Below are positions 6,905 through 55,500 of a stretch of DNA of 64,000 nucleotides, in pieces (positions within the stretch are counted from its first letter, which is position 1; each line of letters opens with the position of its first letter). A program made the translations under genes and the position numbers. The stretch spans positions 14,942,001 through 15,006,000 of the forward strand of contig OY987243.1 of the NCBI GenBank assembly GCA_963920765.1, read 5' to 3'. The stretch is from Ulota crispa. Taxonomy: Eukaryota > Streptophyta > Bryopsida > Orthotrichales > Orthotrichaceae. The notes below the pieces were generated by a model that saw nothing but the letters and a program-made list of their open reading frames with translations, made no database searches and was not told the DNA's origin.

Positions 6905-7555
6905 TTAACCCCTAAATGCCCAGGGCACCCAATTTGGGTGTTTACAAAACTTTGAAGATGAATTAAACCTTATCAAATCACTAGTTTTTATATTTTTTTC
7001 ATTATAAGTTTGTTTTGAAGTTTATTTTCAGCATCAAAATTTTGATTTTGAAAATGAAAGTTGACAATTTTTCTACTCAAGACTTTGTACAAGGGTGTCC
7101 ACTATAATCTTGAGTTTTCTAGTGTTGGAAGATCTTGAAAATGAGCCTCAACTACCCTAGAGCTTGGTGAAAAATCCACATTAGAAATCCATTTAAAAAA
7201 TATACAGGAGTAGATTTTGAAAGCTGTAAATTGATTAAAGTTAGGCATGCAATGAACTTAAGCCTCATATTTTTTTGATGACCAACTTTTTAGATTGGAC
7301 ATGTGAAATGAGGATTAGAAAACTTCAAATCACTTTTGCAATATTAACACCCTCATGTTCAAAGGTTATAATCTTTCAAACTATAAGTGATATTGTTGTG
7401 TTTTCTTTTTCCATGTAATCTCTAACAAGTCAATTTTAAAATTGTAGGGTTATAATTTTAAAAAGCTTAATGATATTTATGAAAAGGTTTGTTGATTGTT
7501 CACTTTCTTGAAAATGCCAAGAAGTTCAAAAAGACCTTTGGCATTTAGGGGTTAA
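6905..7555. mobile_element. TTAA-flanked element, TTAACCCCTAAATGCC family, copy A
   Basis: The 651-bp element begins TTAACCCCTAAATGCCCA and ends TGGCATTTAGGGGTTAA, with TTAA at both borders. It is alignable over its whole length with 38174-38823 (a long shared run beginning 'TACAAAACTTTGAAGATGAAT'). Just inside the left end is a perfect palindrome, CACCCAA-T-TTGGGTG. It has no open frame of note and is non-autonomous. The termini and TTAA borders fit a piggyBac-type element (inference). Confidence 0.8.
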
Positions 7556-9385
7556 ATCCTGAATTGCATGTACAATAATTCTTGGCAAAAATTTCAATAA
7601 ACATCATGACTCTACCCTTTTGTTACTCCTCCTATCTCAAATCATATTAAAGAGGGGATGTATATTGTCCTTTTAGACAGTGAGGGATTAATGCAATTTT
7701 TTGCAAATTCTAAATAAGAGATGTACTTATAAATGAAAGGAAATAATTTCTAATGTGATTGCAGAATTTGTTGAGCAAAGAAGTATTTTATGATTTTGCA
7801 CTTAGTTTTCTTTCATGTTGGACGTATCGTATGTTCATTTTTTAGTTATGCAGCCTATAAAGGACTTACGCATTTGTGAATTTTCATGATTTGCAACAAA
7901 ATGTTTTGGTATGGGTATGTTGCAATTGGAAATCATCAAACTTAGTTTCAATGTTTTCTATCATTGTAAATTAGTGTAAGATTTATTGCTTAGCTATTGT
8001 GCATTTTGATCATGTGAATGTCATCTTGGCAAGAAGTAATTGTTTTTCTCAAGTGATTCTAAGAATATAAATGGAGTTGCATTTGAAACCTTTTTCAATC
8101 TTGTTAATTTATGCAAGCACTTGATCTTTGCTTAAGAATACCAAACTTTAGGTCACTTCTTTATTGAAATGTTTGAAAACACACCTAGAAGATTATATGG
8201 TTGGTTGCAATAAAAAAAATCGGGTTTGGAAAAAAGACTATTTTATGTTTCATTTTTCTATAAACTATTTAAGGCCTTAAACCTTTAGAACACCAAACAA
8301 TCAACAAGTCCTCTACAAACATATAAAGTTTGATCACTCAAAAAAAATTCATGAAATAAGATGAAAAACTTACGACCTTTCCATCTGATTCATCTGAATA
8401 GCCAAAAATATGCATTCCTATGCAAATATGGTGTTGAGGGTATAGCGGTTCAATTGTGCGTATGTTTAAGACATGGAAAGCAATACTTGTTCTTCAAAAG
8501 GATATTATTAGGGGCAAAGCAAGGTTCTTCTTGCAAATGTTTAAGTTGACTTTAGTACAATAAAATCTAGATCACCTAGTTGCAAAGATTTTCATTTGTT
8601 TCTTGGAAGTCTCAATCCTTCATGTTTTTTCTTTTACAACACAAAGGTTTATTTGTCAATAGTATTTTGACCCCTTTTTTTGGACAAAATCATGCTAGAT
8701 TGAACTAGGTGGATAAGATTTGGCAATAAGTGGATCCAATGTTGGAAATCCTATCATGGAAAGAATCTCCCCATGCCTCACGACTATGTGATGAAATTCC
8801 TACACTTGAATGGAAAATGTGCAACACCTAGATGAAATAATGATTTCATTTCAAAACATCTCTGACCAATTATGGCTTATTCATAAGATATTTTTTTTGC
8901 CATCTCAATACTTTTTGAAATTTGAAAAAATAAAAGGCTATTTATAATTTCTAAACAAAAAGTTTGCTAAATATTGTCTATTCAAGAATCCCATAAAATA
9001 ATCATGTTAACTAATTTAGAATCCCACCACAAGTAGTTTAAGAATCTATTTGCTCTTGGTACAAAGAATGGTATTAGTAAAATGAATTGAGTCCAAAATT
9101 TCCAAATACCCTAATTAACATCATTTCTAATACCAATAGCAAATTAACTTTACTTCAAGTACTAATTCTGCAGCAATTTCATTAAAATTGTTGACATTTG
9201 ACATATATAGCAACTCGCAATGACAAAATGGTGATTGATGACATTGCAAAGGTTCCACAAACTTGATTGATTATTAATGATATCTCCAACAATGGTAAAT
9301 ACAATGACAAACATTTATTTCAACTCTAGACAACAAAAACAACAAGGATGATAGAAATACAAGTCTTTGTCCTAATGAAAAAAAA
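7556..9385. other. Gene-free AT-rich spacer
   Basis: No gene or paired terminal repeats recognised. Near 7627, 'TACTCCTCCTATCTCAAATC' resembles a Stowaway left end, but I found no matching right end. The frame at 8361-8549 has no recognisable features. Confidence 0.5.
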
Positions 9386-52030: not shown

Positions 52031-52571
52031 GCAAATTCCATTTTGAGTGCCAACAAAGGCCTACAACTTCGTAAACTCTTCAAGAATCAAAGAGATCATT
52101 TTGGACTTTTGCAATTTTTAGTAGATCATAGCAAAGCAAGAAACTTGAAATAGCATAAGGACAAAAAGAGTCACACAGAAGAACCCCCTCGAGTTCCTGT
52201 TCAACATGGGCTGCCTGACAAAGTTTACATCCCTTTACTGATGCTGAGGCTTCTCACTCATGGTGAACACTGCTAACAGCTACAACACCAAGCCTCAAAC
52301 TCTGACGTTACATTAGAACTTGAAGATTCAGAGCAGCACCTGCTCTTTCGTATAAATGACATGGTTTACAAGCTCAAATGAGCCCCAGATTTGGCTACAC
52401 CTCAATAGCAGCCCATATCTGGTCAGCCTCTAGCAATTAGACTTCTGATGCCTGCCATCCACAAAGTCGCACAATCCACCTCTTCCAACTGCTGCAGCTA
52501 GAGCCTAGATTTTTTCTTCCTACCCTTTTTCCAGGTGGTCACACCTAATTAGGTGTCTCAAATCACCTCGT
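52031..52571 (-). other. 3' untranslated region of INO80 and spacer
   Basis: Downstream of the INO80 stop on the minus strand. No gene is recognised; the sequence is less AT-rich than the adjacent spacer, consistent with an untranslated exon. Confidence 0.45.
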
Positions 52572-55500
52572 CTAAGAATCGATGCTAACTGTGCTAGGTC
52601 TAGAAATACTTACATGGTCTCCATTAACTGTGTGGTCTTCCACTCCGTCTAATAAATATCCATTCTCCAGTACAGACACGCCTGCATATCCATCTCCAAA
52701 ATCCTCTCCAGCAAGCGAAGGGGAGGGTGTGTTGCTTTCACTAGGATTTAATGATGACCCCTTCTTAGGTCGCTGCCTCGGCTTGGCTGACTGAGGATCA
52801 CGCGGTGCTCTCGGTTTCCTTTCTCTCGGTTGCTTCACGGCCTTTGGCTTCGCCACTTTCGGCTCCCTTGGTTTTGCTTCCTTGCGAGGTCTGGGAGGCC
52901 TCGCCTCTTTCGAAGTCCTTGGCACTTTAGGAGGCCTGGCTGGCTTTTCTTCTCCACTTTGTTTCCTCTGTAAAAACAAAAGCACACAACTTTAACAATC
53001 ACATCAAAGAATCATTCTTGAAAAAGAGCTTAACCCCTAAAGGATGTTTCAGGATTGTATATGCTCTCATGTGTCGTATACGGATGGGGTACTTGGGTAG
53101 TAGCACATGAATCCCATTGGAGCTGTAAATTTCATGTCAAATCATAAACATACTACCAATCACCTAGAAAAATTTGGGGAGTTTTCGGCATTTGTCAAAA
53201 AGCCATTTCTTCTAGTACTAAAAGGTCCTCGTATGACTACAGCCAACACTTTTGGTAGGCAACATCCTTTCGGGGTTAAGAATGTTACATACATACGGAC
53301 AAAAAAATGCCTGCAAGATTTTCAAGCAAGAGACAGACGGAATTTCATCCTGACGGACCTTCTTGTTGTTGACAGGCGTACTAGCATCTCCCTTCTCCTC
53401 TGAGTCTTTCGGTGCAGCAGGAGTTTCAGTAACCTCCGAGAGAACTATTTTCTCATCGTCGAGAGAGGCGTCCCCGCCCTCAGCATCCAGCCTTACTCCC
53501 TTCAAAGAACCAGTTACAGCCCATCCTTTCTTTCGTCTCCCATGCTTGTCCTGCAGCTCAAGTAAAGCACAACCTCCATATCAAAACAAAGTTGGGAATG
53601 TTTACTCTACAAAAGATCAATGGAGTCAAAACTTCCAGACAGCGTTGTAAGAAGAGATATAATGAGTGCCCTAAAGGCATAACGGGGCTGGAGTTTCCAG
53701 ATCCCGCAGCAGCCGCCACAGGAAGACTTCGTTTAATACCATTTCAAATCAGCCTACTACTGTGATCTCCAAATAGACCACCTCACACGATGACAGACTG
53801 TGAAAGTTCTCTTTTTCTTCAAAAATGATTTTGATAGAATAGATCGAATGTATTATCAAAATTAAAAAGATAACTTACAGCTGCTTTGGAAACTTGTTCC
53901 TTGATCTTCGCTTCCATCTCCGCATCGTCTAATAGAAGTGAAACCACCTCTTCCGCTTCCAAGACATCACCTTGCGACGCAGTATTTCCCGTCATAACTA
54001 ATTGCTGCACGGTGTTCTTTTGGCTTGCTCGTTGCATTATCTTCTCTTCAACTGTGCCTTTGCATATTAACCTGTATACCGTAACCTGCGCCAACCAGAG
54101 TAATGAATGAGCGCAATTGGAAACAATACACCCAAAAATGTAAAAGAGTTCAAGATAACATCCATGTGATGAATAAACAAAAGAATTGGAATTGGCTTTA
54201 TAGGTTCAACCCAAATAAAAAGGCCCCTCCATAACATAGAAAGGTCGAAATAGTGTTGAAATCAGTGAACCAACTGACCTCTTTCGTCTGCCCAAGACGA
54301 TGAGCACGATCCATGGCTTGAAGATCCATTGTAGGATTCCAATCGCTTTCGTAAAAGATAACAGTATCGGCAGCTGTCAAATTGATTCCGAGCCCTCCAG
54401 CTCTTGTACTCAACAAAAACACAAAAATATCCGACCTGCACACGTTACGAAATCTCAGCCCTACTTTCTCAGATCACAAGCAAACCCAGAGGCCCTACAT
54501 GTGACATGTGCAAACAATGAAACGTATCACAAAGTTCTTAATTTTTACAACAAAGGCATCCATATTACTGAAATGAGCAAGCAATATAAAAATCCACGTA
54601 CCGATGCTGAAAATCTTTGACCATGTCACGTCGATCCATTATGGTCGATGAACCATCCAGTCGCAAGTACTTGTATTTGCGATAGTTCATATAATCCTGA
54701 CCATTTGCAATGCCGACATCAATACAAACTTTCAATAGAAAAGTACTGAACATGCATGCACCTGTGATGTACGTTATCCTAGTCGAATACTCGTTGAATA
54801 AGACGACTTCTGCGATGAACCGTGTTATATCACCCACGGATTTACAAATAGGAGACCAAGTCTCACGCTTGAACAGATCAATTGGGAGAAGCAAAACAAG
54901 AGCAACCTGCCTAGGGTCACGTATGGGCTCAAGAAAGCAACCTCTAGAATATTGAGCATCTTGGTCATCTGAGCGAAAAGCAGCACCCGGTGGTTTCCAG
55001 CCCGTAAGCGCTTCAGCAATATGTCCAACACTTGCAGTTTCCCAGAGTCCTGTTCAGAAAAATGTGCAAACAAATCAACTTAATCAAACCGACTTACACT
55101 TCTCAAGAAGACTGAAAATCTTCGTTATCTTCTTCTAAATCATACGATTAAAAATGACAGTAATGGTATCATTCGTACAGTATCACATCACAAGGTTATC
55201 TACTACCATGTTGACTTTGCAATCACTGCACCACGAGCACAGATTTATTCTGTGTAGCCCAACACTTCATCACCATTGTTGTTAATATAACATCCAACAC
55301 CTTACCGTAAGCATCTTAGCAAAATCGAAGCTTTGCAAAGGGGGTGCAGAGCCGAATATCCGGAAAGGTACTTCCAGCAGAGGCTGAATGGGACGAGTGC
55401 AAAATCTGCTCTCTTCAATGGGTGCACGCAACGGAGGAGGGATAGCTGGTCCATTACTCTCTGAAGTCCGAGCAAAGCCCACGAGAAACCGCTTCATTAG

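Follow-up and report, generated by a model that had tools for sequence, protein, structure and literature searches.

TTAA-bordered miniature elements with piggyBac-type ends, and their likely kinship with transposase-bearing elements, in what appears to be a plant genome

PiggyBac transposons are known mainly from animals and are a standard transposition tool of animal genetics. The length of piggyBac is put at 2.5 kb in PMC10813416. The closest parallel among the published systems compared is the set of coral CMITEs (PMC2872659): non-coding elements of ~100 bp with TTAA borders and CC[C/T]T ends. In plants, PiggyBac is listed as one of seven superfamilies of miniature inverted-repeat transposable elements (MITEs) of angiosperms (PMC10004981), and in the C-fern it accounts for 1230 annotations and 122 kb, a minor component (PMC6890710). 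The subject here is a set of short elements in one 64,000-base stretch (C2:14942001-15006000, "the window" throughout) of a 274.8-Mb genome. To judge from sequence comparison they are very probably MITEs of the piggyBac superfamily, at least two families of them being internal-deletion derivatives of longer elements, presumably moved in trans.

The likeness to piggyBac and piggyBat (Pfam PF13843) lies in the TTAA borders, the CCCYT ends, a DDE_Tnp_1_7 transposase domain with its three aspartate (DDD) motifs and, in one copy (L024), a candidate Cys-rich C-terminal motif. Unlike piggyBac, the elements live in a host that is apparently a plant, the domain of a copy on C1 is split in a way that suggests an intron, most listed copies carry stops, and the sole element with both ends read (A/B, below) is ~5 kb long in place of the 2.5 kb given for piggyBac. 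The coral CMITEs are alike in being non-coding, in their TTAA borders and CC[C/T]T ends, in their supposed reliance on a piggyBac-like transposase, and in inserting at another element's TTAA; they differ in size (~100 bp, whereas the present elements are mostly 230-960 bp, with ~31,000 exact ends), and two families here are directly homologous to the 3' ends of transposase-bearing elements.

The original prediction had called piggyBac unusual in a land plant. Its presence is not new, because the same superfamily is already listed in angiosperms and a fern; it is the scale that stands out, for exact ends here number ~31,000 and copies of the transposase domain at least 116, against the 1230 C-fern annotations. 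Notable are the abundance of the elements, the presence in a plant of so many diverged copies of the transposase, and the homology that ties two families directly to elements carrying it. (A bibliographic note: no description of piggyBac MITEs in a moss was found in literature titles and abstracts, a search that most subscription journals lay outside and in which the end motif was not a query; it is no proof of novelty.)

The elements were sought by an end motif, TTAACCCYTAAA. With at most one mismatch allowed it has 15 matches in the window, whereas 100 dinucleotide shuffles average 1.31, peak at 4 and never reach 15; inverted pairs of such ends, 200-1000 bp apart, number six in the window and none in the 100 shuffles. 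At two mismatches the pairs number 10 (shuffle mean 1.14, maximum 4), and for this reason the weak members of the window are, one by one, only moderately supported. Eleven window elements, weak ones counted in, occupy 6,548 of the 64,000 bases, and their longest stop-free stretch is 87 codons, in keeping with the claim that none of them codes for anything. Short, bounded by inverted ends, high in copy number and (in these 11) non-coding, the elements have the attributes of MITEs.

Recurrence of the ends across the genome, put forward at the outset as a check on the assignment, is ample: the exact 12-mer TTAACCCCTAAA has 15,477 forward and 15,495 reverse occurrences, 30,972 in all, as against 77 (41 + 36) for the reversed motif used as a control. 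The balance between strands is what inverted ends give. Exact counts for two further ends are 2118 forward and 2123 reverse (TTAACCCCTAAATGCC) and 4072 forward and 4082 reverse (TTAACCCCTAAAGGACC). Halving ~31,000 exact ends and multiplying by 0.7-0.9 kb yields a rough figure of ~11-14 Mb of elements, or 4-5% of the genome; of 100 ends sampled, 70 were exact.

(A side remark: the commonest end, CCCCTAAA, holds CCCTAAA, the plant telomere unit, and ~31,000 telomere-like heptamers are thereby spread through the genome; the match is probably a coincidence.)

Anatomy was read in 20 segments, each 10 kb long and lying within the first 1.35 Mb of C1, picked for motif density and not at random. Sample and window together contain 50 inverted pairs at one mismatch, mostly spaced 230-960 bp apart, with sizes bunching near 240, 650 and 870-960 bp and two pairs of 1452 and 1503 bp. 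Adding five weaker window elements makes 55 for comparison: 10 clusters of at least two, plus 7 singletons. Median identities within clusters range from 75 to 91%, implying that older and younger bursts are both present. The elements share the start TTAACCC[CT]TAAA, or something near it, and then diverge into ...GGACC, ...TGCC and ...CGCC types. Across 110 tabulated ends, 100 of them picked by the motif with one mismatch allowed, C occupies positions 5-7 in 104-108 of them, position 8 is C or T in 107, and position 9 is T in 106.

A search of the genome with PF13843 (DDE_Tnp_1_7), which scored 116 of 528 candidates so that its counts are lower bounds, finds at least 116 copies (120 matches, best E 1.3e-73) and none in 14 control genomes. 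Stops are present in most of the listed matches. None of those listed lies inside the window, as had been stated; the nearest, C2:15048720, is 42.7 kb downstream of it. Four open frames from three copies all match DDE_Tnp_1_7 and nothing else in Pfam, and the solved relatives found by sequence are piggyBac (6x67, 6x68) and piggyBat (9c0f) only. With the catalytic aspartate motifs placed via alignment to piggyBac and piggyBat, a regular expression finds all three in 5 of 15 loci (L021, L023, L024, L031 and L039), and a pattern for the C-terminal Cys-rich motif, run over 15 loci, has a candidate match in L024 and a degenerate one in L033. L039 (C1:1180709-1181995) is listed without stops; its three aspartate motifs are distributed over two separate open stretches, which suggests an intron, and it could be an intact or domesticated gene. 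At two places transposase matches of the same score lie 14-20 kb apart in opposite orientation (C2:36765124/36779670 and C7:18203169/18223004), and a MITE pair in L014 (1912-2839 and 8796-9723) has mirrored flanks 7 kb apart: these are inverted segmental duplications or assembly artefacts.

What connects MITEs with transposase-bearing elements is shared 3' sequence. For the copy at C2:36765124, the 3' zone (L054+L042) terminates in TTAACCCCTAAATGCCCAAGGGTG, a TTAACCCCTAAATGCC 3' end 1,945 bp past the DDE domain (891 of the intervening bases are unread). It is 73-86% like five members of the family that we call family 4, but the likeness sets in only at MITE position ~310-370 and then runs to the end; in the 469 bases that precede it neither MITE similarity nor a left end was detected. 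In the window, the right ~560 bp of the element at 18514-19418 (~560-590 bp in its family) are 84% like this 3' end and, over the part read, 77% like that of C4:5936056 (L052). L052 covers the point at which a whole MITE should start, and its similarity is lost near that same MITE position (320-356 in four forward members); L042+L054 and L052 resemble each other from 38 bases ahead of the MITE homology onward. With all of L052 as the query, 33 of the 40 places begin at query 361-425, as the MITEs do, and 7, the query among them, reach further upstream. Two of the other six lie downstream of listed transposases: C4:14102832, 95% alike over all 751 bases, and C5:10869739, which is the L024 copy.

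For family 1, whose ends are of the ...GGACC type, the match takes in the last 400-450 bp of L049 and L053, the 3' zones of two transposase copies, and the 151 bases around each expected start of a whole inserted MITE (L055, L056) contain no MITE sequence and no left end; a shifted or truncated MITE is a less likely alternative. There are two weaker links: the left end at window 32622 is 89% like the candidate 3' end of C6:21758576 (L034) over 27 bp, and the C8:19570986 transposase copy has a 3' end that resembles the last 66 bp of window 43185-43598 at 71%.

An origin by internal deletion is supported by these comparisons for two families, 1 and 4. Do the others share it? Most MITE families might instead be piggyBac ends mounted on unrelated DNA, by abortive gap repair or as fortuitous ends, with the terminal repeats alone in common: a possible but doubtful course of events, and one that competes with the origin step only, for the elements would still be piggyBac MITEs moved in trans. 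The 400-590 bp of 3' end that families 1 and 4 match, far past the terminal repeat, speak against it; the shortness of MITE matches to transposase loci outside neighbouring MITEs and other repeats (in the 55-element comparison) speaks for it, as does the left (5') half of family 4, found within 5 kb of a listed transposase in 0 of 40 scored matches (1734 candidates).

The ends of the transposase-bearing elements themselves are most clearly seen where two copies can be aligned. The loci at C3:13131287 and C10:11526021 (together, A/B) align over 5029 bp with 90.5% likeness; to within one base, the left limit of the alignment is TTAACCCCTCATCGCC and the right limit TTAACCCTTCATTGCC: a ~5-kb DDE_Tnp_1_7 element in two copies, bounded by TTAACCCYTCATYGCC (TTAA-CCCYT), with the left border of the C10 copy changed to TTCA. 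Candidate 3' ends of other copies, read inwards, are TTAACCCTTCACCGCC (L026), TTAACCCTTTAGCGACC (L033), TTAACCCCTGAGCGCCC (L034), TTAACCCTTGCATGACC (L039, the C1 copy), TTGACCCTTTAAGGACC (the C8 copy), TTAACCCCTAAATGCCC (L042), TTAACCCCTTGAGGAC (L044), TTAACCCCAAAATGACC (L047), TTAACCCCTAAAGGATTG (L049), TTAACCCCTAAGCGCC (L050), TTAACCCCTAAAAGACC (L053) and, doubtfully, TTAACCCTAGAATGTCC (L045). Both A/B copies counted, 12 of 14 candidate 3' ends start with CCCYT, the other two with CCCTA (L045) and CCCCA (L047). MITE-like ends near transposase genes were not accepted outright as the transposon's own, since MITEs lie everywhere and such ends need a control; at L034 an end at 345-356 belongs to a neighbouring MITE, and at L040 the candidate 3' end adjoins a MITE, with TCAA common to both.

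A number of observations weigh against tying the MITEs to these transposase-bearing elements: 1) Ends were allotted to transposase copies by position, with sister comparison for A/B alone, and by our own arithmetic ~1 exact MITE end, on either strand, is expected by chance in the 9.6 kb searched. 2) No acceptable end was found in 9 of 14 loci read in one set, nor in 6 of 13 3' zones (L041, L043, L046, L048, L051, L052). 3) The 1.5-kb flanks of the first 12 transposase loci hold neither a TTAACCCYTAAA end nor a TTAA pair with inverted ends, an absence that is partly explained by the position of the A-element ends, 2.5 kb upstream and 1.4 kb downstream of the domain, and by their slightly different sequence. 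4) A/B, the one element with both ends read, differs from the commonest MITE end at positions 10-13, and TTAACCCCTAAA was read on the 3' side of transposase copies only, at both ends of none. The proposal that full-length copies would carry DDE_Tnp_1_7 between the same ends is borne out for TTAA-CCCYT, in the 5-kb A/B element; for TTAACCCCTAAA the evidence covers the 3' side. 5) Four of the six upstream-reaching places found with L052 are without a transposase nearby among the matches listed (116 of 528 candidates). 6) The domain zf-Tnp_2 (PF13842) was not found in the genome, and had no match in any control either.

Could the MITEs belong to a different TTAA-targeting superfamily, the genome's piggyBac copies being unrelated to them? 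Kolobok likewise duplicates TTAA, and the commonest MITE end, absent from all of the first 12 loci and at both ends of no transposase copy, would suit it; the reading is nonetheless very improbable in view of the 400-590 bp of 3' end that two MITE families have in common with DDE_Tnp_1_7 elements and of the CCCYT starts of 12 of 14 candidate 3' ends. Neither another transposase class in full-length relatives nor a duplication of other than four bases was seen, no search for a Kolobok transposase having been made.

The target duplication of these presumed piggyBac MITEs is four bases, TTAA, as the original prediction had it. Borders are TTAA/TTAA in 45 of 50 pairs, and the remaining five deviate by a single base at one border or at both, but this agreement is partly by construction, because the search motif starts with TTAA and one mismatch is allowed; it counts against leaning on the borders, which are not the main target evidence. 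That evidence comes from abutting elements and empty sites. The palindrome TTTAGGGGTTAACCCCTAAA, two ends on one common TTAA, occurs at 335 places genome-wide, and the same two ends with separate TTAAs four bases apart at 4. When element flanks are joined with a single TTAA and compared with paralogous repeats in the DNA analysed, the alignments run through the junction. In 15 such alignments, from 8 elements and chosen for display, the sister reads TTAA in 4, TGAA in 4, TCAA in 2, and TAAA, TATA, TAAG, TTTA and TTCA in 1 each, so that several sisters have lost, or never had, exact TTAA; 13 of the 15 have no gap within or directly beside the junction four bases (the exceptions are L004, with a one-base gap inside the junction, and L008_6697, with a three-base gap beside it), and no longer duplicated word appears in any.

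Equal flanks of 4-10 bases outside TTAA are no commoner in the 50 pairs than in permutations. Three-base matches are the discordant note: five of 50 pairs have one, against a permuted mean of 0.9, and 1 of 500 permutations reached five. Two of the five are abutting elements (CCC, GGG) and three are without explanation. A target duplication of another length was rejected on this permutation comparison, bar the small three-base excess. The view that the inverted repeat itself invariably begins with TTAA, the true duplication being of another length (3 bp, Harbinger- or CACTA-like), can draw on that excess, two members of which (ATC and AGA) are in the window, and can be set aside in the face of the 45 pairs with no three-base match, the two abutting cases among the five, the 335 shared TTAAs as against 4 separate ones, and empty sites of mostly four bases, TTAA or near variants. 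The unexplained matches are ATC (window 6905), AGA (window 20401) and AAC (L020 4727).

Abutting elements were also considered as one recurrent composite, and this was rejected: in L008, L013 and L017 the abutting partners come from different families. If insertion sites were picked at random from ~1.46 million TTAAs, a calculation extrapolated from the window, ~164 abutting pairs would be expected; 335 is of the same order, and no special mechanism is therefore needed.

How might these elements have multiplied? A DDE_Tnp_1_7 transposase made by ~5-kb elements elsewhere in the genome would bind the terminal repeats (CCCYT..., most commonly CCCCTAAA and then GGACC or TGCC), cut the element out and insert it at a TTAA, which would then stand on both sides. 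At least two families would have arisen from long elements by internal deletion, with a few hundred terminal bp kept, and the deletion derivatives would have multiplied in trans; the remaining MITE families may have the same origin. The piggyBac-like assignment first made from the window finds support in the TTAA target, the CCCYT ends, the at least 116 DDE_Tnp_1_7 copies and the shared 3' ends of two MITE families.

A broader picture can be drawn only tentatively, and we would put it at rather less than even: a land plant in which piggyBac, minor elsewhere in land plants, became a main DNA transposon, several diverse transposase lineages each spawning its own deletion derivatives, the derivatives together accounting for at least ~4-5% of the genome and a few copies of the transposase being sufficiently intact to function. 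Were a plant genome shaped in this way by piggyBac elements of its own, it would be a source of transposases adapted to plants and of miniature substrates made by nature, and one could test there how a superfamily that is usually minor in land plants came to expand; plant repeat annotation may leave many such copies unclassified.

That the host is a land plant was part of the original prediction, and this claim is supported in part. A LEAFY-like gene, with SAM_LFY and then C_LFY_FLO in order, lies at C4:16.275-16.279 Mb (one of the matches contains a stop, which may mean that an intron was read through), and SAM_LFY has five weaker matches at other places in the genome. In the window a thiamine pyrophosphate (TPP) riboswitch (RF00059, 60 bits) at 50061-50198 (+) follows a ThiC exon at 46511-47152 (+) by ~2.9 kb, the placement seen in plant THIC 3' regions. 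Both LEAFY and the 3' riboswitch are marks of the plant lineage; the two arrangements fit a land plant, and that it is a moss is no more than a guess.

Nine elements and two weaker ones had been proposed for the window. Six stand as good: 6905-7555, 18514-19418, 20401-20741, 25122-26048, 27259-28132 and 53030-53279 (strand is assigned below only where stated). The piggyBac-type MITE at 6905-7555, of a 650-bp family, has TTAACCCCTAAATGCC at each end, 18 of 20 bases being alike between the ends; its clear sister at 38174-38823 (85-88% in aligned blocks) has a decayed right end (TTAACCTTAAGTGCCC). The piggyBac-type MITE at 18514-19418 (+), of the ~930-bp family 4, is the one whose right part resembles the 3' ends of transposase-bearing elements. 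The element at 20401-20741 has ends TTAACCCTTAAAGGAC and TTAACCCCTAAGCGTC and a further copy in L049 (84% over 242 bp). At 25122-26048 lies a member of a younger ~930-bp family, whose copies are a median 91% alike, with ends TTAACCCCTAATGGACC and TTAACCCCTAAAGGACC; its start, earlier put at 25132, is corrected to 25122 (TTAACCCCTAAT). The 874-bp MITE at 27259-28132 has a sister, L007_7087_7969 (86%), as does the 250-bp MITE at 53030-53279 (ends TTAACCCCTAAAGGATGTT and TTAACCCCGAAAGGATGTT; sister L005_2468_2714, 78%).

The decayed MITE at 19920-20278, of a ~370-bp family, has degenerate ends (CTAACCTTTAAACGCC and TTAGCCCTAAATGCC) and clusters with L016_1258 and L016_3539. Three members are weak, and the 55-element comparison yields no sister for any of them: 43185-43598 (ends TTAATCCATTAAG and TTAACCCATTAAGGTCC), 32622-32858 (left end TTAACCCCTGAGCACCTAGAGTT) and the candidate at 51091-52030, with a degenerate left end (TTATCCCTAAACGCC). 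The three single left ends that had been reported are present, on the + strand, and have no convincing partner: TTAACCCGTAAAGGACC at 29560-29571 and TTAACCCCTAAAGGACC at 30123-30134 are unpaired, and TTAACCCCTATG at 36573-36584, with 2 mismatches, has a loose partner at 36948 that is no better than chance. Other repeats in the window are 22648-23107 with 28791-28948, and 23548-23675; among them are copies ~190 bp apart and a 64-bp tandem duplication.

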